Positions 3,303 to 55,226 of a stretch of DNA of 64,000 nt are shown piece by piece. The translations under genes and the position numbers were made by a program. Numbering within the stretch: position 1 is the stretch's first letter; every line of letters begins with the position of its first letter. Below the pieces are notes generated by a model that saw only the letters and a program-made list of their open reading frames with translations, made no database searches and was not told the DNA's origin. The DNA comes from Phycisphaera sp. (lineage in GTDB: Bacteria; Planctomycetota; Phycisphaerae; Phycisphaerales; Phycisphaeraceae): assembly GCA_016125215.1 (NCBI GenBank), contig WGMF01000012.1, positions 1 to 64,000 of the forward strand, read 5' to 3'.

Positions 3303-3337
3303 GGGGTAGAAGAATCTCTGATGTCAGAACCGAGCCA

Positions 3338-3430
3338 TTGATGATTGATGATTGATGATGTCAGAATTGGATATGCCCATCGGTCACAAGCGACCGGGCA
3401 AAATAAAATCCACTCACCACTCACCACTCA
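3338..3430. repeat. Composite repeat block between convergent nuoC and the cyclase-fold gene
   Basis: The block contains a TGATTGA heptamer array (3338-3361), a hairpin unit GGTCACAAGCGACC (about 3380-3395) and a CACTCACC array up to 3430. The TGA stop of the minus-strand gene (3428-3430) is formed by the CACTCACC array itself. Confidence 0.8.
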
Positions 3431-4606
3431 CCGCACCGTCTGTTGCAGCGCGAGCACGGCGTATGCCGTAACGAGGCTGGGGTCGGCTTCCATCCAGCGG
3501 TCGGCTTCGTTGGTCCATGAGCCGTCTTCTTTCTGCAGGCTCGTGAGTTTTTCGATCAGTTCCTGAGCCCAGTCGTGCCCCTTGCCGTCCGCCGTGGTGA
3601 GCGTCGGGGACTTGCTCACACCCTCCCAAGCACGCATGGCACGGGCAAAAGTCAGGTAGTAGTAATACAGGCCCTGGAGTTTTTGCGGCTCGGTCAGACC
3701 GGGGTTCTGGTCGAGTGTGTAATTGTGTTTGACCCAGTCGAGCACCGCCGCGACGCGCGGGTCGTCGGGTGGGAGCTGGGCGTAGATGTAGCTCTTGAAG
3801 CCGGCGTAGGAAACCGAACCATAGGTCCGCAGGCCGCTGACGGGTTGACCCGCCTCGCCGGCCTTAATCATGTCCGGGCTGGCCTTGGATTCGGGCACAC
3901 CGATGTGGTCCTTGCCAATACTCGTCGAATAGATGAAACCGCCGTCGTTGACGATCTTGTCACCGAACTCCTTGTTTTCCTTCACGCCCTGGCAGCGCGT
4001 AATAAAGACCATCGCACGCTGGAACGCCGGGTCGTTGCAGTCCAGACCCGAGTCGTAGAGCGCCTGGATCATCATCTGGGTGTTGGACATGTCCGGTCGG
4101 CCCTCACCGCCGTAGCCCGCGCCGCCGTAGAAGGGATGTTGTTCGTTGATCGTAGCGCCATCGGGGTCGGCCTGGTTGTGCCACTGGAGGCTGCGGAGAT
4201 AGTCCTGCGCCGCCTTGATCCTCTCCTTCATGCCCGGCTGGTCCGCGAGGCGTGAGAAAGCGCTAAGGGCAATGGACGTGTTGTAGTTTTCGAGGATGCC
4301 GTTCTGGATCGACCCGTCGGGCTTGACGGCCGAGAGCACGTAGTCGTAAGCCTTGCGTGTGGCAGGGTCATCGAGCGAGGCGTTGGGCTGGTCAAGCAGC
4401 GCGTTGAGCACCAATGCGGTGACCGCCGGCCCGGGCTTGGGCGTCCACGAGCCGTCCTCGTTCTGTTTCGTCCGCAGGTAATCCAGTCCCTTCTTGATCG
4501 CTTCCTCAGCCTGTGTGCGGTGAGCCTCGTCCACCGCCCATACGGGCACGCAAAGGGCAAGGACCGTCATCACCATCAAGGTGTACGTTTTCATCGTATG
4601 ACGCAT
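3428..4606 (-). CDS. Exported prenyltransferase/squalene-oxidase repeat (cyclase-fold) protein
   Basis: The protein has 392 residues with a signal peptide (hydrophobic core about 8-18, ending near VWA). It is built from alpha/alpha-barrel repeats of the prenyltransferase/squalene-cyclase type, for example AIKKGLDYLRTKQNEDGSW near residues 31-49 and a closing LTSLQKEDGSW near 360. Exported proteins with these repeats are common in planctomycetes and are usually assigned no enzymatic role; the DXDD motif of true squalene cyclases is not seen. ATG 4606 is preferred because AGGAG lies eight bases upstream; a TTG at 4612 is the alternative. The last codons run into the repeat block at 3338-3430, which supplies the stop. 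It may belong to the same broad fold class as the toroid part of the giant proteins at 23 and 37 kb. Confidence 0.85.
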   Translation of the reverse strand: MRHTMKTYTLMVMTVLALCVPVWAVDEAHRTQAEEAIKKGLDYLRTKQNEDGSWTPKPGPAVTALVLNALLDQPNASLDDPATRKAYDYVLSAVKPDGSIQNGILENYNTSIALSAFSRLADQPGMKERIKAAQDYLRSLQWHNQADPDGATINEQHPFYGGAGYGGEGRPDMSNTQMMIQALYDSGLDCNDPAFQRAMVFITRCQGVKENKEFGDKIVNDGGFIYSTSIGKDHIGVPESKASPDMIKAGEAGQPVSGLRTYGSVSYAGFKSYIYAQLPPDDPRVAAVLDWVKHNYTLDQNPGLTEPQKLQGLYYYYLTFARAMRAWEGVSKSPTLTTADGKGHDWAQELIEKLTSLQKEDGSWTNEADRWMEADPSLVTAYAVLALQQTVR

Positions 4607-6008: not shown

Positions 6009-6200
6009 TTCACCACAGAGACACAGAGGCACAGAGAGCAAGACAACAGAGCTGATCCATAGATTACGCAGATTGCGCAGATTCAATCCAATACCCCGAA
6101 CTCTTTGAAATCCTCTCTGAATAATCTGCGTCATCTGATTAATCTGCGGATAACTCCAGGTTCGATTCTTCTCTGTGTTCTCTGTGCCCTCTGTGTTAAT
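6009..6200. repeat. Nested inverted composite repeat (CACAGAGG outer arms, ATCTGCG inner arms)
   Basis: Outer arms: CACAGAGACACAGAGG-type sequence from 6009 and its reverse complement ending at 6200. Inner arms: GATTACGCAGATTGCGC near 6061 and its complement (AATCTGCG units) near 6120-6150. The whole can fold as one long imperfect hairpin. It occupies the gap between the sugar isomerase stop (6215) and the next minus-strand gene (start 5971). Confidence 0.85.
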
Positions 6201-7048: not shown

Positions 7049-7080
7049 GGATGATGGATGTTGTTAAGAAGAGAAATCCA

Positions 7081-7250
7081 TTGATGATTGATGAATGATG
7101 ATTGATGATCTCAGCGATCGGCGTCACCGGTCGCAAGCGACCGGGCTAAATGTGCATGATTTCAAGTTCTAACTCCTAACTCCTGTCTCCAAACTCCTGT
7201 CTCTTGTCTCTTGTCTTTATCTGCGTTCATCTGCGTTCATCTGCGGCTAA
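7081..7250. repeat. Composite repeat block at the nagB 3' end
   Basis: Four families are joined: the TGATTGA heptamer array (7081-7107), the perfect hairpin CCGGTCGCAAGCGACCGG (about 7128-7145), a heptameric AACTCCT/GTCTCTT array (about 7168-7212) and TTCATCTGCG decamers (7216-7250). The TAG stop of the NagB fusion gene (7247-7249) lies within the last decamer unit. Confidence 0.85.
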
Positions 7251-9199
7251 ACCTGCTCCCCGTTCCACCGCACGAAGCCCTCGATGGCTTCATACTCCGG
7301 CAGACCGAGTTTGTCGTAGACCTTGGCGGTCGCGCGGTTGCGGTCCTCGGCGCGCTGCCAGAACTCGCGTTTATCGGTGCCGGGGAACAGGGCCTTATCC
7401 TTCTGTGACTGGTGCTTGAAGATCGCGGTGCGCTTACGGAGCAGTTCCACCGGCGAGATCGGCACAGCGATATCAATCGCCTCCGGCCCCCACTCCTGCC
7501 ACGCGCCGCGGTAGAGCCAGACTTCACAATCCTTGTACCACGCCTGCGACTTGACTCGGTCGATGGCCTTCAAGATAGCGGTCAGACAGGTCCGGTGCGT
7601 GCCGTGCGGGTCGGAGAGGTCGCCCGCCGCGTAGACCTGGTGGGGCTTCACCCTCTCAAGCAGGTCCACAATGATCTGGATGTCCTCTTCGCTCAACGGC
7701 TTCTTGCGGACGACGCCGGTCTCGTAGAACGGCATGTCGAGGAAGTGAAGATTCTCCATCGGGATGCCACAGTAGCGACCGGCGGCACGGGCTTCGCCAC
7801 GGCGGATCAGGCCCTTGATCTTCTGCACCGCGTCGCTGTCGACCTGGCCGGGCTTCTTGTTCTTGAGTGATTCTTCGATGTGACGTTCAAGCTCGGAAGA
7901 GGCTTTGTTGTCGATGCCGAACTCGTGGTTGAAGTCCGCGGCGAAGTCGGCAAAACGGATCGCGTCGGAGTCGAATACCGCGATGTTGCCCGAGACCTGG
8001 TACGCCACGTGGACCCCGTGTCCCTGTTCGACAAGACGGATGAGCGTGCCGCCCATCGAGATCACGTCGTCATCGGGGTGGGGCGAGAAAACGATCACGC
8101 GCTTGGGGTAGATGCGGTCGCGCTCGAGGTCGGGGTCGCCCTCCTTCTTGGCGTGTTTGGGCTTGCCGCCCGGCCAACCGGTGATCGTGCGCTGCATCTC
8201 ACGGAAGACGTTGATGTTGATCTCGTAAGCCGGCCCGTGCTGCGCGAGCAGGTCCTGGAGACCGGCTTCGTTGTAATCTTCTTCAGTGAGTTTGAGGATC
8301 GGTTTTTCCAGGTGCGTCGCCAGCCAGATGACGGCCTTGCGGATCGTGCGCTTTTCCCACTTCACCGGCCCGAGCACCCAGGGCGATTTGTAGCGTGTCA
8401 GCTCATCGGCCGCGGCCCGGTCAAGCACGATCGTGGCGTGCGGGTGTTCCTGCAAGAAGCTGGCCGCCACCGCCGAGGTGATCGGCCCCTCCACCGCGGC
8501 GCGGATCACCGCCGCTTTGTTCTCGCCAAAGGCCATGAGCACGACCCGCCGTGCGTTCATGATCGTACCTACGCCCATGGTGATCGCCCTGCGGGGGACG
8601 TTTTCCTCACCGAAAAAATCTCCCGCGGCGTCGAGGCGCGTCACCTTGTCGAGCGTGATCAATCTCGTTCGGCTCTCGCGTGAGGAGCCCGGCTCGTTGA
8701 AGCCGATGTGCCCCGTGCGACCGATGCCCAGCAGTTGCAGGTCGATGCCCCCGAGGTCCGCGATCTTCTTTTCATAAGCCACGCACTGCTCGTAAACCTT
8801 CTCGATCGGCAGCGTGCCGTCGGGGATGTGGATGTGGTCCTTGGGGATGTCGATGTGGTCGAACAGGTGCTCCCGCATGAAACGCACGTAGCTCTGCAGT
8901 TCGTGCTGCTGCATGGGGTAGTATTCGTCGAGGTTGAACGTGTAGACGTTCTTGAACGACAGCCCCTCGTGGGTGTGCAGGTGGATGAGGTGGTTGTAGA
9001 CACTCACGGGCGTCGACCCCGTGGCCAGCCCGAGCACCGCCGGCTCGCCCCGCGCGTTCTTTTCCTTGATGAGCTGTGCAATCTGGTTGCCCACCATCTG
9101 CGAAGCGGCCCTGGAATCTTCACAGACCATCGTGGGGATGCGTTCGAGCGCAGCCAGGGGCGAGAGTGTGTCGGGCTTGAGGGTCGGTGCGGCGGTCAT
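7247..9199 (-). CDS. nagB: Glucosamine-6-phosphate deaminase fused to a PIG-L/LmbE deacetylase-like domain
   Basis: The protein has 650 residues. Residues about 18-290 are a NagB deaminase domain, converting glucosamine-6-phosphate to fructose-6-phosphate and ammonia. LDEYY (Asp91) and GHIGFNEPGS (His164, Glu169) match the active site. The position equivalent to the catalytic-ring Asp141 of E. coli NagB is Thr (GRTGH), as I recall for the long NagB subclass. Residues about 365-640 form a PIG-L/LmbE-like domain with zinc-binding PHPDDD at 373-378 and a DPHGTH motif. This fusion is known in Bacteroidetes and related phyla. It should feed amino sugar from chitin, peptidoglycan or host glycans into glycolysis. 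No partner gene is adjacent. Confidence 0.95.
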   Translation of the reverse strand: MTAAPTLKPDTLSPLAALERIPTMVCEDSRAASQMVGNQIAQLIKEKNARGEPAVLGLATGSTPVSVYNHLIHLHTHEGLSFKNVYTFNLDEYYPMQQHELQSYVRFMREHLFDHIDIPKDHIHIPDGTLPIEKVYEQCVAYEKKIADLGGIDLQLLGIGRTGHIGFNEPGSSRESRTRLITLDKVTRLDAAGDFFGEENVPRRAITMGVGTIMNARRVVLMAFGENKAAVIRAAVEGPITSAVAASFLQEHPHATIVLDRAAADELTRYKSPWVLGPVKWEKRTIRKAVIWLATHLEKPILKLTEEDYNEAGLQDLLAQHGPAYEININVFREMQRTITGWPGGKPKHAKKEGDPDLERDRIYPKRVIVFSPHPDDDVISMGGTLIRLVEQGHGVHVAYQVSGNIAVFDSDAIRFADFAADFNHEFGIDNKASSELERHIEESLKNKKPGQVDSDAVQKIKGLIRRGEARAAGRYCGIPMENLHFLDMPFYETGVVRKKPLSEEDIQIIVDLLERVKPHQVYAAGDLSDPHGTHRTCLTAILKAIDRVKSQAWYKDCEVWLYRGAWQEWGPEAIDIAVPISPVELLRKRTAIFKHQSQKDKALFPGTDKREFWQRAEDRNRATAKVYDKLGLPEYEAIEGFVRWNGEQV

Positions 9200-11286: not shown

Positions 11287-12480
11287 TCAGCTCTCCGCTT
11301 CGACGGGTGGGTGTAAATGGACATCGCCACGCAGGAGAAAGATCACGCCGACGAGTGAGAAGAACATCTGGTAAAACCGCGCGAACATCAGCATCCCGAC
11401 CACCTGGTTGAAGGTACACATCGGCGGATCGACGAGCAGCGGACGCGCGATGACCTCCATGACACCCAGGCCCTGGTAGCTGATCGGAAGCGACCCGCCC
11501 AGAAACGCCAGCGGCACCACCGTCAGCACCAGCCCGAACGGCCGGCGCATCCCCAGCGCATAACCCGCCGCCATCGCGCTGAGCGCCAGACACGTGTGCA
11601 ACGCCATCGATAAAAGGAGGTTGAAACCCAGCAGCGTCTTGTGGTCACGGTAGCCGACCACCGCGGCGTCGAGTTTCTGGAGCATCGCCCCGCCGGGCAG
11701 ACGTGGAAGGAGTTTGTCGATACCGAGCTTGTTTCGCAGCCTGCGTGAAAAATAGATCGCGGAAAAGAGCACGACCCCCGCGATGCTCAGCCAGAGGTAG
11801 GTCGTGATCGTACGGACGACCTTGTCGTCGAGCTTGAACAGCCCCGCCACGGATGCGACGCACACCAGACCGAGCAACCCCAGCACACGGTCGATCACAA
11901 CGCTCATCACCGCGTCGGTCCGTCGGCCCGACCCGCGCGCCGCGTAGTAGGCTTTCACCACGTCGCCCCCCGTCGTGCCCGGCATGCAGTAGTTGAAGAA
12001 GCACCCGACCATCGTGAGCGAAAAGGTCTTGCCCACCGTCACGTCCATGCCTCTTGCGCGCATGAGCATCCACCAGCGGAAGGTGAGGATCGGGTAGATG
12101 AGCATCACAAGCAACAACCCGAGCAGAGCGTAACGCCAGTCCGCCCCGCGCAGCTCCGTGGTCACGGCGGGCAGGGCCTGCAGGTCGTTCGGACCCTCGC
12201 CGAGTTGACCGCGCGTGATGCGGGCTTCGATCGGGTGAAGCGACGCCCTATCCAGAGTGAGTGATAAGACCGCGGTGGGATCAACAGAGGTGATGTCCCC
12301 GTCCACCACGCGCATCGTCAGAGATTTTTCAGGCAAGCCAAGCTGCGAGAGCAATGGATGCCCCGCAGGCACCTTCACCGAATCGTGCCACGTCATCGTC
12401 AGAATGATGTACATCACCCCGCCGACCGCGACGAGCGCCCGGAAGATCAGAAACAGGTAACGCTTGGTCGTCTCGTTCAT
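11287..12480 (-). CDS. Lysylphosphatidylglycerol synthase-type flippase domain membrane protein
   Basis: The protein has 397 residues. After one N-terminal helix (about 8-27) and a periplasmic stretch of about 90 residues there are about seven membrane helices. The conserved core of the LPG_synthase_TM/UPF0104 family is visible: TVGCFFNYCMPGTTGGDVVKAYY near 152-176, DRVLGL near 193, and a PISYQGLGVME-like segment near 338. Family members move lipids or lipid-linked precursors across the membrane; the C-terminal catalytic domain of MprF is absent. It is the first gene of the operon with the FAD oxidoreductase and aldo/keto reductase. Confidence 0.85.
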   Translation of the reverse strand: MNETTKRYLFLIFRALVAVGGVMYIILTMTWHDSVKVPAGHPLLSQLGLPEKSLTMRVVDGDITSVDPTAVLSLTLDRASLHPIEARITRGQLGEGPNDLQALPAVTTELRGADWRYALLGLLLVMLIYPILTFRWWMLMRARGMDVTVGKTFSLTMVGCFFNYCMPGTTGGDVVKAYYAARGSGRRTDAVMSVVIDRVLGLLGLVCVASVAGLFKLDDKVVRTITTYLWLSIAGVVLFSAIYFSRRLRNKLGIDKLLPRLPGGAMLQKLDAAVVGYRDHKTLLGFNLLLSMALHTCLALSAMAAGYALGMRRPFGLVLTVVPLAFLGGSLPISYQGLGVMEVIARPLLVDPPMCTFNQVVGMLMFARFYQMFFSLVGVIFLLRGDVHLHPPVEAES

Positions 12481-12915
12481 GCACGCCGCGACGGGTCAAA
12501 CCAGTGGGGTAATCCGGGCAATCCCCATGATTCTACTGTGAGGGCCAATCCCCCGCCGACCCCGGTCGGAACCCGCGACCAACGGGGTATGGAGAAACTT
12601 CCTGGAGTGGTATAATGATGACCGTTGACAAGTCAAGATTGCTTCTCGTCTGCGGGGTTCGATCACGGTGACCTATTTTTGCTCAACCCTATGAAAACCC
12701 CAAGGGAGCCTTCACCCACGCGATGGTCATGCCTCCTCTGAGTGGACGGCCGGGACGTGCGGGGATCGCACCCACCTATTGATTGGGGTTTGAGCAAAAA
12801 CACCGAACGGCCCAGGTGGATGGGGAGTGATCGCTTCAACACCGGCCCGCTCTACGAGTGGGCCGTTTTCATAGAAACACTCACCACAGACCATGATGGC
12901 TATGATGTGATCCGG
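12481..12915. other. 435-base divergent intergenic region ahead of cysE
   Basis: No convincing gene lies here. It should hold the promoters of the leftward flippase operon and of rightward cysE. Its only strong feature is the inverted repeat at 12676-12800, described separately. An open frame in phase with cysE runs back to 12742, but it passes through the inverted repeat and has no initiation signal. Confidence 0.6.
12676..12800 (+). promoter_or_regulatory. Candidate structured leader RNA upstream of cysE (long inverted repeat)
   Basis: TTTTTGCTCAACCC (12676-12689) is matched by the inverse arm GGGTTTGAGCAAAAA (12786-12800), 14 of 15 positions. A small hairpin GTGCG-GGGAT-CGCAC (about 12756-12770) lies inside. 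This could close a 125-nt folded element in the cysE leader. No known riboswitch class, 6S RNA or SRP RNA could be recognised. Confidence 0.35.
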
Positions 12916-13866
12916 ATGGAAAACCACACGCCACAACCCGAACCGCTCGACCCACTCGTCGACGCCGTCGTCCAGAGCTACCACGCCGACGACCGTACGC
13001 ACCACCTCGACGCAACCTACCTCCCCAGCCGATCGCACACCGTCCGCGTCGTCGAGATGCTCCGCAAGCTCTTCTTCCCCGGCTTCTTTGACGACCAGCG
13101 CGTCACCTCCCAGAATGTCCGCTTCCACGTCGGCGAACTGCTCTCCCAGATCCGCGAAGCGCTCTACGAACAGGTCCGCCAGGCCCTGCGCTACGAAGCC
13201 AACCGCAAACAAGACGGCCACGGCGACGCCTGCGAGAACTGCGACACCAAAGCCAACCTCGTCACACGTCAATTCCTCGAACGCATCCCCGAACTGCGTC
13301 GGTTGCTCGCGCTCGACGTGCAGGCCGCCTTCGAGGGCGACCCCGCCGCCGTCAGCACCGATGAAACCATCTTCTGCTACCCCGGCGTCGATGCCATCTT
13401 CCTCCACCGCATTGCCCACGAGCTACACAAACTCGAGGTCCCCCTGCTCCCGCGCATCATCAGTGAGTACGCCCACAACGAAACAGGCATCGACATCCAC
13501 CCCGGCGCAACGATCGGCGAGTCCTTCTTCATCGACCACGGCTCGGGCGTCGTCATCGGTGAAACCACCACCATCGGCAACCGCGTCAAGATCTACCAGA
13601 ACGTCACCCTCGGCGCCCTCTCCACCAAGGGCGGCCAGCAGTGGCGCGGACGCAAACGACACCCCACCATCGAAGACGATGCCACCATCTACGGCGGAGC
13701 CGTCATCCTCGGCGGGGCCACCGTCATCGGCCAGGGCGCCACCGTCGGCGGAGCCGTCTTCCTCACCACCTCCGTCCCGCCCGGCTACACCGTCACCATG
13801 AAAGCCCCCGAACTGACCATGACCGAACAGAAAAAACGCCCCCCCAAGCCCTCGAAAACGCCATAA
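12916..13866 (+). CDS. cysE: Serine O-acetyltransferase
   Basis: The protein has 316 residues. An N-terminal helical domain (about 1-180) is followed by a left-handed beta-helix of hexapeptide repeats: [21 protein letters not shown] near 192-212, then [22 protein letters not shown] and [22 protein letters not shown]. The HPGA/DHG and the SPEAT-like loop are diagnostic of CysE. It acetylates L-serine with acetyl-CoA, the first committed step of cysteine synthesis, in the cytoplasm. ATG 12916 is the first ATG that fits the family N-terminus. It is somewhat longer than E. coli CysE (273), as in the EpsC-like branch. A possible structured leader precedes it. Confidence 0.93.
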
Positions 13867-39618: not shown

Positions 39619-40147
39619 ACGGGTCGTATCTTCATGGATGTTTTACCCGGCGCTCACTAATATCGTGCGGTCCTTCGGGAGGTTCAAGAGCGAAACATGC
39701 AACGCCTTGAAAAAGAAGCCTAGATGGCCGCTAAGAAACCCACGATGACACTGCAGACTGCCATCATAGGCTCTGATTTTGTTTGCCAAAACACCGTTTA
39801 CTGTGTTCTATCGAGGCTTGACAAGTGATTTTCAGATGATCTGATATGACCCTTTTGAGTTTTTTAGTGGCCTGCTAGGCGTGCTTGATGTCGTCTCGTG
39901 AACCATGTGGGTAATCGGCTAATTCGCATATGGTTTCACCAGAGCCTCCTTGCTCGATGGCCAGCAGACAACTAAAACCCACAGGTCGCTAGAGCCCGGG
40001 TTGATGTGCAATAAATCACCATAGGAACACAGAGATGAAAAACCCATGAAGCCTGGGAAGGGTAGGTATTGAACGTTGGCCCTCGGGTCGCAAGCGAGCG
40101 GGCTCAATGTAGAGGCCACACCACTGCTGACTCCTGACTCTCATCTC
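39619..40147. other. 529-base intergenic region between copy 2 of the giant protein and rodA
   Basis: No gene is supported. The genes on both sides end here, so no promoter is required. The last 65 bases (40083-40150) are a composite repeat, listed separately. The remainder shows no hairpin with a T-run or other recognisable element. Confidence 0.6.
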
Positions 40148-40150
40148 CTA
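40083..40150. repeat. Composite repeat block at the rodA 3' end
   Basis: A degenerate hairpin unit GGGTCGCAAGCGAGCGGG (about 40085-40102) is followed by a heptamer array (GACTCCT/AACTC) to 40150. The TAG stop of rodA (40148-40150) falls inside the array. Confidence 0.75.
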
Positions 40151-41332
40151 ACTCAACACCTCTCCGGTGTCGAACTCGAAGGTGGGTCGGTTGATGATGG
40201 CGGGTCTTGCGGTGCCGAAGTTCAGGACAAGGCCGATCATCGCGTAGGTTGCCATGAGGCTCGACCCGCCGTAGGAGACCAGGGGCAGCGTGATGCCGGT
40301 GATCGGGAGCAGGCCGACGGTCATGCCGACGTTGACGACCATCTGTGTGAAGATGATCGCGGCAAAGCCGACACACGCGAGCCTGGCGACGGGGTCCTTG
40401 GAGCGTGAGGCGACTGTCATGAAGCTCAGCACGAGCAGGGCAAACAACCCGACGACCGCCGCGCCGCCGAGCAGTCCCCAGCGGTTGACGATGACGACGA
40501 AGATCATATCGTTGTGGTCTTCGGGCAGGCCGTTGAGGTGGATGAGCAGGCCGCTGCGTTGCGGGCCGTACCCGTGCAGTCCGCCCGCGCCGATGAGCGT
40601 CATGGCACGGTCCTGTTGGAAGCCGATGTCGTTGACGAAGCGACGGTCGCCCTGGGCCTGGCTGACCATGGCGCGGATGCGGTCGCGCTGGTGCGGGCGG
40701 AGGACCTGCATGGAGTCGGGGGCGTAGAGGATGACCAGCACGTTGACGACGACGAGCGTCACACCGATGGCGATGAGCGTGCCTAGGTGTCTGAGCTTCG
40801 CGCCGGCGGCGACGAGCACCGCAAAGAGCGCGGGTGGGAAGAGGATCGCCATGCCCAGGTCGGGCTGTTTGAGGATCAGCAGCATCGGTACGAACATGAG
40901 CACGAAGGGCACAAGCAGGCCGCGGATGGTGCGGTAGCTGTCACGGAAACGCAGGTAGCGTGCCAGGGCCAGGATGAAGACGACCTTGGCCAACTCCGAG
41001 GGCTGGAACATCATGAAGCCGAGGTTGATCCAGCAGCGAGCACCGTTGCGGACGGGCACGAGGGCGCGGGGCATGAAGGGGAGGATGATGACAAACAGCA
41101 GCAACACGAAAAAGAGCATGAGCGGGTAGCTGACCAGCCCGATGCGTCGCGGGTGGGGCAGCGCGCAGAGCACCGCGACAATGAGCGAGATGACGAGCCA
41201 CTGCACCTGCTTGGTGGCCTGGTCGGGTTCGACGGTGGCAATGGCGAGGATGCCGATGAAGGTCAGCGCCGCGGCCGCGATCAGCGCGACGACGCTGGGG
41301 CTGATCGAGTTGGAGGAGGTGCCCGCTTTCAC
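40148..41332 (-). CDS. rodA: Rod-shape SEDS glycosyltransferase RodA
   Basis: The protein has 394 residues and about ten membrane helices of the SEDS (FtsW/RodA/SpoVE) family. Hallmarks include WINLGFMMFQPSELAKVVFI near 96-115, ILKQPDLGMAIL near 150 and the closing GITLPLVSYGGSSLMATYA. It polymerises lipid II into glycan strands during side-wall growth, partnered with PBP2. GTG 41332 is chosen because it overlaps the mrdA stop as GTGA. The distinctive KVxxxxYxxRxxxF of FtsW is absent and the pairing with PBP2 supports RodA. The stop codon is provided by a repeat block. Confidence 0.93.
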   Translation of the reverse strand: MKAGTSSNSISPSVVALIAAAALTFIGILAIATVEPDQATKQVQWLVISLIVAVLCALPHPRRIGLVSYPLMLFFVLLLFVIILPFMPRALVPVRNGARCWINLGFMMFQPSELAKVVFILALARYLRFRDSYRTIRGLLVPFVLMFVPMLLILKQPDLGMAILFPPALFAVLVAAGAKLRHLGTLIAIGVTLVVVNVLVILYAPDSMQVLRPHQRDRIRAMVSQAQGDRRFVNDIGFQQDRAMTLIGAGGLHGYGPQRSGLLIHLNGLPEDHNDMIFVVIVNRWGLLGGAAVVGLFALLVLSFMTVASRSKDPVARLACVGFAAIIFTQMVVNVGMTVGLLPITGITLPLVSYGGSSLMATYAMIGLVLNFGTARPAIINRPTFEFDTGEVLS

Positions 41333-44914: not shown

Positions 44915-44988
44915 GGGGAGGTCCTAAAGGTGGATTGCGGGGGCAGTGATTCTAAGGGGCACGGGCGGGGTGTCAAAAATGGGTCATT

Positions 44989-45200
44989 GACCGCCAAGAC
45001 GCCAAGTACGCCAAGTCGGACGCAATGATGATGCGATTTTAAGATCGGCCGAGAAGACATGAGTTGATAGAAACACAAGCCAAGCCGTTCCGATCTAATC
45101 ATTCCTAACCATCCTTTTAGCCCGTCATACTCATCAGCACCAATTGTATTGATTCTCTTGGCGATGATTTCTTGGCGTTCTTGGCGTCTTGGCGGTTCAT
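44989..45200. repeat. Long inverted repeat of the GCCAAG family at the uvrA 3' end
   Basis: The left arm GACCGCCAAGACGCCAAG with one more unit (44989-45015) is inverted relative to the right arm (45157-45200; CTTGGCGTTCTTGGCGTC-type units). The arms bracket about 140 bases without a gene. The block starts three bases downstream of the uvrA stop (45204-45206). Confidence 0.85.
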
Positions 45201-45203
45201 GTT

Positions 45204-49358: not shown

Positions 49359-49470
49359 AGCCGCGAATGAACGCGAATAAACGCAAATGGGAAAGAAAAC
49401 CCCGATGACTGTGGGGATGAACAATGAATCTATTTTTCTTATTCGCGTTTATTCGTGTTCATTAGCGGCC
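49359..49470. repeat. Inverted repeat of the GAACGCGAAT family overlapping the Nif3-like gene end
   Basis: The left arm (49359-49390, AGCCGCGAATGAACGCGAAT and following) is inverted relative to the right arm (49438-49470, ending TTCATTAGCGGCC). The loop is about 47 bases. The right arm encodes the final residues LAANEHE and the TAA stop (49449-49451) of the Nif3-like protein. Confidence 0.88.
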
Positions 49471-50567
49471 AACTCCCAACGCACCTTGCCCCGCGTGAGT
49501 TTGGCCAGTCGGTCGCGGTAGGTCGGCAGATAGGGCCTCTCAGTCTCGGTGTGGCCGGCGAGGATCACGGACAGGCCGCGCTGCTGCGCGTCAAGCGTGT
49601 CGTGGTGACGCATCTCACCGGTGAAGAAGACCTCAGCCCCCATCGCCGCTGACTTGTCGAGCAGCGCACCCCCTGCCCCCGCACACAGACCGATGCGCGT
49701 GATGCGTTTCGATTTGCCCGTCACGGCACGGTGGATTGCGAGCGGTTGCTTCGTCGTCAGTCGCAGGTGCCTGCGGATACGCTGGGCCAGCGCATCCACC
49801 GTCACCGCCTTGTCGAGTGTGACCAGCCGCCCCTGCCCGACCCCCGGAAGATTTCCTGAATGTTTCTCAAGCGGGTACACATCAAACGCAGGCTCCTCGT
49901 ACGGGTGCGTCTCCCGTAACGCCTCAACGACATGCCGCACACACTTCCGGGGGCAGACCATCTCCAACCGAACCTCCGGCACACGTTCGAGCCTGCCACG
50001 CCTGCCCACCTTGGGGCTGGTCGTCGCACCCCCGACAAACGTGCCCTCCCCTTTCAACATGTAAGAGCACCGCGTGTAGTCCCCGATCACCCCCGCGCCG
50101 GCGGTAGCCATCGCTTCACGCACCGCGTCCACACTCGCCCCCGGCACGAACGTCACGATCTTGAACTCCTGCTCACCCCGATAGGGTGACAAAACTTCGA
50201 CCACCCCCGATCCCAGGCCCGACGCAAGCCAGTCGTTCACCCCGCCCGGGGCCGCGTCCAGTGCCGTGTGCGGTGAATAGATTGCCACGCCGTTGCGGAT
50301 CGCATCGAAAATCAAGCCCTCTTTCCAGTGCCCCGCCGCGGTGACGCTCTGCATCGGCTTGAAAATCGGCGGGTGATACGCCACCACCAGCCCACATCGC
50401 CGGTGAATGGCCTGCCCCAGAAACCCGGGGGTCAGGTCGATGCACAAGAGCGCACGCCTGACATCCCGTGCCTCATCGCCCACCTGCAACCCGACCTTGT
50501 CCCAAGGCTCAGCCCACCGTTCGTCCGCGACCGACCGCAGAACGTCCAATAACGTGCTCAAAATCAT
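49449..50567 (-). CDS. Nif3-like dinuclear metal centre protein (GTP cyclohydrolase I type 2 homologue)
   Basis: The protein has 372 residues. Metal-binding motifs match the family: WDKVGLQVGD near 21-30, GLVVAYHPPIFKPM near 58-71, and GHTETERPYLP near 342-352. The middle domain (about 130-240) is the PII-like insert of the long Nif3 form. The proteins form toroidal hexamers; their role is unclear, possibly metal delivery or a hydrolase function. The last seven residues are encoded by a dispersed repeat. It starts divergently from the coiled-coil gene at 50660 with 92 bases between. Confidence 0.92.
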   Translation of the reverse strand: MILSTLLDVLRSVADERWAEPWDKVGLQVGDEARDVRRALLCIDLTPGFLGQAIHRRCGLVVAYHPPIFKPMQSVTAAGHWKEGLIFDAIRNGVAIYSPHTALDAAPGGVNDWLASGLGSGVVEVLSPYRGEQEFKIVTFVPGASVDAVREAMATAGAGVIGDYTRCSYMLKGEGTFVGGATTSPKVGRRGRLERVPEVRLEMVCPRKCVRHVVEALRETHPYEEPAFDVYPLEKHSGNLPGVGQGRLVTLDKAVTVDALAQRIRRHLRLTTKQPLAIHRAVTGKSKRITRIGLCAGAGGALLDKSAAMGAEVFFTGEMRHHDTLDAQQRGLSVILAGHTETERPYLPTYRDRLAKLTRGKVRWELAANEHE

Positions 50568-54898: not shown

Positions 54899-54952
54899 GG
54901 CGCTATTGTCCCCTCCTCCCCCGGAAGGTCAAAGCCCGCCATGATTCAGGAA

Positions 54953-55193
54953 TTCACCACAGAGGACACAGAGGGCACAGAGAGGGGAGAGAGAATGGAT
55001 GATGGATGATGGATGATGTCAGAGTGGGACCCATTGATGATTGATGAATGATGATTGATGATCTCAGAGGGGGGTTCGTTCTCCGGTCGCCGCAGGAGAG
55101 TGACCGGTCTAAATGTGTTCATCTTCGTATCTCCGTCATACCAACACTCTCTGTTGACTCTTTCTCTGTGTTCTCTGTGTCCTCTGTGTTGAA
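54953..55193. repeat. Nested composite repeat at the queA 3' end (CACAGAGG outer arms)
   Basis: Outer arms: CACCACAGAGGACACAGAGG (54955 onward) and the inverse ending at 55193 (TTCTCTGTGTTCTCTGTGTC and following). Between them lie TGGATGA/TGATTGA heptamer arrays (about 54995-55065) and a degenerate hairpin unit (about 55082-55110). It fills almost the whole gap between tatC and queA; no gene is present in 54899-55226. Confidence 0.87.
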
Positions 55194-55226
55194 ATCGGAT
55201 TGTGTGTTCCGTCCGTGATGCCATGG

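Follow-up and report, generated by a model that had tools for sequence, protein, structure and literature searches.

The repeat blocks in the window, by which we mean the whole 64,000-nucleotide stretch of Phycisphaera sp. contig WGMF01000012.1, probably derive from two families of very small selfish elements, as MITE-like copies that carry no gene and as single ends, decayed and stacked on one another. The complete element of the first family (family A) would consist of one GxxExxY gene, for a RecB/Cas4-like PD-(D/E)XK protein, between inverted arms of 9- or 10-bp units. In the second (family B), inverted arms with units of 7 (or 8) bp would enclose an IVP gene, for the four-helix-bundle protein of 23S rRNA intervening sequences. 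We see an even chance that the wider picture is one of unnamed, phylum-crossing minimal mobile elements, with a GxxExxY gene between inverted three-unit arms read by its own protein. The unit would diversify so that each nuclease lineage has its own arms and gene-less followers, and the widespread bacterial heptamers would be the ends of parallel IVP elements.

Repeat blocks of the window and their place in the genome

Repeats were present at all eight places where the first-pass annotation had claimed blocks. Eleven of the 13 arrays with periods of 7 to 10 detected in the window fall in four of them (134, 3338, 7081 and 54953). The weaker blocks at 6009, 44989 and 49359 were picked up by TRF and also, in whole or in part, in the inverted-repeat search, and the block at 40083 was recognised by eye only. 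An 848-kb sample drawn from the 4.04-Mb genome of this organism, with genes called by a codon-usage model and gene starts approximate, contained 70 such arrays in 139 kb of non-genic DNA versus 14 in 709 kb of coding DNA, a 25-fold difference in density per base, and a Markov-shuffled copy of the sample contained one. Genome-wide, the unit pair TTCTCTGTGTTCTCTGTG with at most three mismatches gave 201 matches versus one for the reversed pattern. The families are not equally frequent inside or upstream of genes, in keeping with the first-pass annotation: the arrays are concentrated outside coding DNA and the elements lie on the stop side.

Block 7081–7250 combines the left end of an IVP-type element with a small hairpin, runs of 7-mers and a single 10-mer arm, and no complete inverted element of family A or B was found in it. 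The left end, (TGATTGA)n followed by TGATGATCTCAG (7080–7116, plus strand), matches that of the gene-bearing IVP element L037 at 36 of 37 bases. Internal to the block are the hairpin CCGGTCGCAAGCGACCGG and then GCTAAATG (7123–7150), found at the same position in many TGATTGA copies and with 18 hairpin-like matches in the 848-kb sample. Runs of AACTCCT and CTCTTGT (7169–7216, plus strand) form another 7-mer end, and the lone 10-mer arm TAGCC-GCAGATGAAC-GCAGATGAAC-GCAGAT (7217–7250, minus strand) is of the kind carried by the GxxExxY element L031. The neighbours of the block are a NagB/PIG-L gene (7247–9199), whose TAG stop codon sits within the arm TTTAGCCGCAGATG, and a sugar-isomerase-like gene.

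A gene-less 9-mer inverted-repeat element of the CACAGAG family occupies 54950–55196 (arms 54950–54983 and 55163–55196). Nested within it is 7-mer sequence, a GGATGAT run and a TGATTGA left end (54995–55072, plus strand) that matches the L037 end at 40 of 41 bases. CACAGAG arms also delimit the 9-mer element at 6009–6197 (arms about 6009–6040 and 6165–6197, placed by eye), inside which a CGCAGAT element is nested (arms 6061–6083 and 6116–6148, of which the inverted-repeat search returned 6061–6081 and 6116–6136). The 9-mer element at 44985–45201 has CGCCAAG arms (44985–45015 and 45171–45201), the arm unit of the GxxExxY element L032. At 49360–49469 the arms of a 10-mer element consist of CGCGAATAAA (49360–49394 and 49435–49469), and the reading frame of the gene at 49449–50567 (Pfam DUF34/NIF3) terminates within the right one. 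Two further blocks lie on the plus strand. The block at 134–257 comprises a TGATTGA end (134–157), an ACCAGTC run (182–208) and a lone CGCCAAG-type arm (about 219–257), and that at 3334–3432 comprises a TGATTGA end, the hairpin GGTCACAAGCGACC and a run of CCACTCA that overlaps the stop of the gene at 3428–4594. The weakest of the eight, at 40083–40150, is a remnant with a single hairpin, GGTCGCAAGCGAGC, and a degenerate 7-mer run (TGACTCC, CTCCTAA; 40083–40156, plus strand). The blocks had been described as composites of unrelated short-period repeats. They are better taken as the ends of small insertion elements, some of them nested, in which the 9/10-mers form inverted-repeat arms; the families are also not all unrelated, since the 9/10-mers have the common plan C[AG]CxxA[GT].

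We identified 69 tandem-armed inverted repeats of family A in the 848-kb sample, nearly all gene-less and mostly 80–380 bp long. An arm usually comprises about three units of this plan, spaced by two or three less constrained bases, and has a fixed outer end (TTCAAC, AACC, ATCC or TAGCC); within this one genome most arms have 2–3 copies. Among 66 scored elements, 11 are placed in the loop between an older element's arms, and no arm is interrupted by another element. On contig C44 three are nested concentrically, with CGCCAAG arms (75744–76082) outside CGCAGAT arms (75790–76041) and these outside CGCAGAG arms (75828–75996). A grid of offsets and lengths of 2–9 gave no clear target-site duplication. 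The idea that outer elements inserted into pre-existing hairpins such as terminators was rejected, since true pairs of flanks showed no greater complementarity than mispaired ones. At C27:121760–122054 an additional unit family, CAGGATG, forms long inverted arms that lie between CGCCAAG arms and enclose a CGCAGAG element.

The 7-mer blocks of family B have a fixed left end, CCATTGATGATTGATGAATGATGATTGATGATCTCAG or near to it (17 copies in the 848-kb sample), and a right end that is a variable 7-mer; many copies carry a hairpin like CCGGTCGCAAGCGACCGGGCTAAATG.

The blocks had been placed immediately downstream of the stop codons of minus-strand genes. The stop side held and the strand did not, being an accident of the window: in the genome sample 23 of 167 plus-plus gaps and 21 of 190 minus-minus gaps carried an element. 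The frequency in divergent gaps was 4%, against 12%. The shared niche at gene 3' ends was borne out, as the element was closer to the stop than to the next start in 37 of 44 same-strand gaps (p = 5e-6), and of the distances to the stop 16 of 60 were zero or negative, the element touching or overlapping it, versus 1 of 52 distances to the start. Because arm ends that carry stops would do little harm behind a stop codon and much harm in a promoter, we read this bias as tolerance and not targeting, the remainder that selection would leave, but a real target preference may lie behind it.

GxxExxY and IVP genes between inverted arms

Repeats of this sort were suspected beside GxxExxY and four-helix-bundle genes, a lead that we went on to test; the names of both genes were confirmed with NCBIfam and Pfam. 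The genome contains five PF13366 genes (GxxExxY, PD-(D/E)XK nuclease; L031–L035), none of them in the window. All five lie between family A arms, with five different units (GCAGATGAAC, GCCAAG, GCAGAG, GCGAAG and GCAGAT), and these are mostly the units of families of gene-less copies (matched for L031–L033 and L035). Only a few of the approximately 70 armed elements in the 848-kb sample bear a gene, and the gene-less copies could be old and dead. One of the five genes, L034, has an in-frame stop.

The association extends well beyond this genome. With an inverted-repeat score threshold of 28 (99% of shuffles scored at most 27), flanking inverted repeats were found at 27 of 28 GxxExxY loci in this genome and its phylum. 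In other phyla, including a Methanothrix archaeon, they were found at 67 of 79 loci, and in 1 of 64 displaced control windows. The CRCAGAG doublet occurred at least five times in 31 of 70 genomes with PF13366 versus 4 of 79 without (p = 1e-8); of these four, three are assemblies 76–89% complete and the fourth is 92% complete. Unit and protein also vary together. In 25 of 86 cases, against 9.7 expected, the nearest protein from another phylum had the identical unit hexamer, and a Mantel test that permuted labels inside phyla gave a modest correlation between protein and unit similarity (r 0.29, p 0.007). All six nearest relatives of L032, from four phyla, have the GCCAAG arms of L032 itself.

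In GxxExxY proteins D62 and E72 are invariant and K74 is nearly so. The AlphaFold (AF2) model has a pLDDT of 96, and its nearest Foldseek matches were Cas4-like SSO0001, lambda exonuclease and AddAB, all with E values above 0.001 (best 0.0015). Based on the D...ExK site, Pfam PF13366 and the modelled fold, the protein is assigned to the PD-(D/E)XK nuclease superfamily, at superfamily level only, and it might bind DNA rather than cut it.

Three PF05635 genes (23S IVP, four-helix-bundle) were identified in the genome. L037 is enclosed by TGATTGA arms and the other two are without clear inverted arms; a gene-bearing copy of the 7-mer right ends ACTCCT and ACCAGT was not found in this genome. In the phylum, 24 of 27 IVP loci are flanked by inverted arms, whose units are mostly 7-mers or 8-mers. 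Inverted arms also flank seven of eight plasmid loci (seven from cyanobacteria and one from Azospirillum), the eighth having a one-sided 7-mer run. The likeness to cyanobacterial heptamer repeats that had been noted in style was borne out, as heptamer arms bracket IVP genes on plasmids of Nostoc, Calothrix, Anabaena and Pseudanabaena. On three cyanobacterial plasmids (L286, L288 and L290) IVP genes with heptamer or octamer arms were observed within CRISPR operons, in the order cas6-IVP-cas4 twice and cas10-IVP-cmr3 once.

Evidence for insertion and a candidate mechanism

Presence and absence between relatives at two sites support insertion. At the gene pair around block 7081–7250, four relatives (L118, L119, L122 and L126) have a gap of about 50–110 bp free of repeats. 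In the groEL-dnaJ gap (genes named by eye), two species of a single genus (L255 and L258) carry a GxxExxY element that is absent from L257, L260 and L261. Two families of the order have a GxxExxY element in this gap, the one in our genome (L033) being a different element, and in L256 some other gene-like sequence takes its place. When close cyanobacterial loci were compared for insertion differences, one extra copy (L197) and no clean empty site were found.

In the Nostocales, a single orthologous site is occupied by GxxExxY genes with differing units. Between L161 and L200 at this site the flanks are 89% and 86% identical and the gene 73%, and since the flanks are more alike than the gene, replacement of the element is suggested. 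L172 and L214 have similar genes (86%) with different arms. In many Nostocales the gene can remain at one site, as a resident would rather than a jumper. The Mojavia element (L182) has GCAAAG in its left arm and GCGAAG in its right, as if the unit had been caught changing.

We infer that the elements move. The nuclease would recognise its own units and cut at a target, in many cases an older element's loop, after which repair would copy the element in, in a homing-like manner without target duplication. PD-(D/E)XK homing endonucleases are single small nuclease genes in short selfish elements and likewise produce no target duplication. The elements described here differ in lying outside any intron or intein and at many dispersed sites, and in having a candidate nuclease assigned by fold. 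A homing-like mechanism fits best because the nuclease is the sole gene, target duplication is lacking, units covary with proteins, insertions lie in loops and an element has apparently been replaced at a fixed site. Taken alone, it is a tentative candidate, at clearly less than even confidence.

If this reading is right, it would give a role to two very common "hypothetical" genes, GxxExxY and the four helix bundle protein. It would provide one explanation, as the ends of tiny selfish elements, for the intergenic heptamers and similar repeats of cyanobacteria, Xanthomonas and Beggiatoaceae, and would account for their occurrence across many unrelated bacteria. It would also offer a testable system for following how a nuclease changes along with its short DNA units.

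Alternative explanations and related systems

Four other explanations were weighed. Ordinary short tandem repeats (SSR/STRR), unrelated families growing by slippage in tolerated intergenic places, would fit the short tandem units and the length of some 7-mer runs (about 15 copies upstream of the L286 plasmid gene). This explanation is very improbable, given arms of about three copies with fixed ends, inverted pairing and freer bases between cores, identical units beside the same two genes across phyla, and concentric nesting. We also consider it unlikely that the blocks serve the host gene from its 3' UTR, as terminators or as RNase III/stability hairpins retained for that purpose, with the gene-bearing copies secondary. 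The strong stop-side bias speaks for such a function, as do the TGATTGA ends, which have antisense orientation relative to the host gene at 10 of 11 same-strand gaps, the co-orientation of GxxExxY genes with the upstream gene (58:14) and the good RNA folding of complete inverted-repeat blocks (z −5.1 for 54950–55196 and −5.8 for 6009–6197). Against it, no T run was seen by eye after the stems of complete blocks, relatives lack block 7081 at the same gene pair, units vary freely between sites and the majority of 3' ends have none. The terminator role implied by the first-pass annotation is unsupported for block 7081–7250 itself: 7080–7250 folds no better than shuffles (z +0.70), which makes such a role for the whole block unlikely.

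The main mechanistic rival is an RNA-level route, because the anatomy of family B is also that of the 23S rRNA intervening sequence (IVS) of Coxiella burnetii, in which GACAGAT heptamers stand in tandem ahead of the S23p gene and the terminal inverted repeat is 28 bp long (PMC4990558). Elements akin to such IVSs would insert via RNA into transcript hairpin loops, with a reverse transcriptase acting in trans. The position of IVSs in rRNA helices and of nested elements here in loops agrees with this, as does the orientation bias relative to the host transcript, but the family A partner has the fold of a DNA-cutting nuclease and the outermost elements lie outside any flanking hairpins; we judge the route unlikely. 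It is improbable, too, that GxxExxY and IVP are passengers, defence or toxin cargo of arms recognised by some other transposase. Neither protein is a known transposase and plasmid IVP genes occur within cas operons, but the copies in this genome have no other gene between their arms, it is the same gene that is enclosed, and arm units covary with the nuclease. Membership of the two genes in a defence system was rejected, as neither matched any PADLOC model. A Y1/RAYT transposase was likewise rejected as the partner, the flanks of the Y1 genes in this genome (L039–L045) being without the tandem units; two of them, L041 and L045, have ordinary inverted repeats on both sides.

The reading of the blocks as remnants of two selfish element families can be set against known systems. 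Like family B, the 23S rRNA IVSs have a four-helix-bundle gene, terminal inverted repeats and heptamers in tandem at the end, show a sporadic spread and are inserted at hairpin positions; loci at which inverted repeats with tandem heptamers enclose an IVP/S23p gene include L037, L226, L234, L285 and L288. The window blocks differ from IVSs in lying between protein genes and not in 23S rRNA, in being mostly gene-less and in having many different heptamers. Bacterial MITEs, such as those of Coxiella (PMC5896051), are similarly short, gene-less, intergenic and nested, with inverted ends and gene-bearing relatives in the same genome; here, ends are shared with gene-bearing elements through the units of L031–L033 and L035 and the L037 end. 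In contrast to MITEs, however, each end is built from several copies of a short unit that differs between families, target-site duplications were not found, and the partner is a PD-(D/E)XK nuclease or helical-bundle protein and not a known transposase. REP/REPIN sequences with their RAYT (Y1) genes also form hairpins in intergenic DNA, and the GGTCGCAAGCGACC hairpin is REP-like, but the units do not flank the Y1 genes in this genome.

The cyanobacterial STRR, Beggiatoaceae and Xanthomonas heptamers share with family B their seven-base units, intergenic location and presence across distant phyla. The excerpted text on the Beggiatoaceae (TAACTGA) and cyanobacterial repeats states that "no mechanism is evident" (PMC4679880), and that on Xanthomonas (GGGAATC) places the repeats at a mean distance of 28 nt from the gene upstream, often in inverted pairs (PMC4692102). 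Unlike for the repeats described here, neither excerpt reports a link to IVP genes or a mobile element. Our literature search found nothing linking GxxExxY/PF13366 to repeats, nothing naming IVP with heptamers outside rRNA and no unit sequences as text; subscription papers lay outside it, so a prior description is possible.

No Rfam RNA was identified at the window blocks. The Rfam matches in the window are tRNA and 6S RNA elsewhere, with no rRNA; the 6S RNA (RF00013) lies at 12644–12826 on the plus strand, between the genes at 11287–12480 (minus strand) and 12820–13866 (plus strand).
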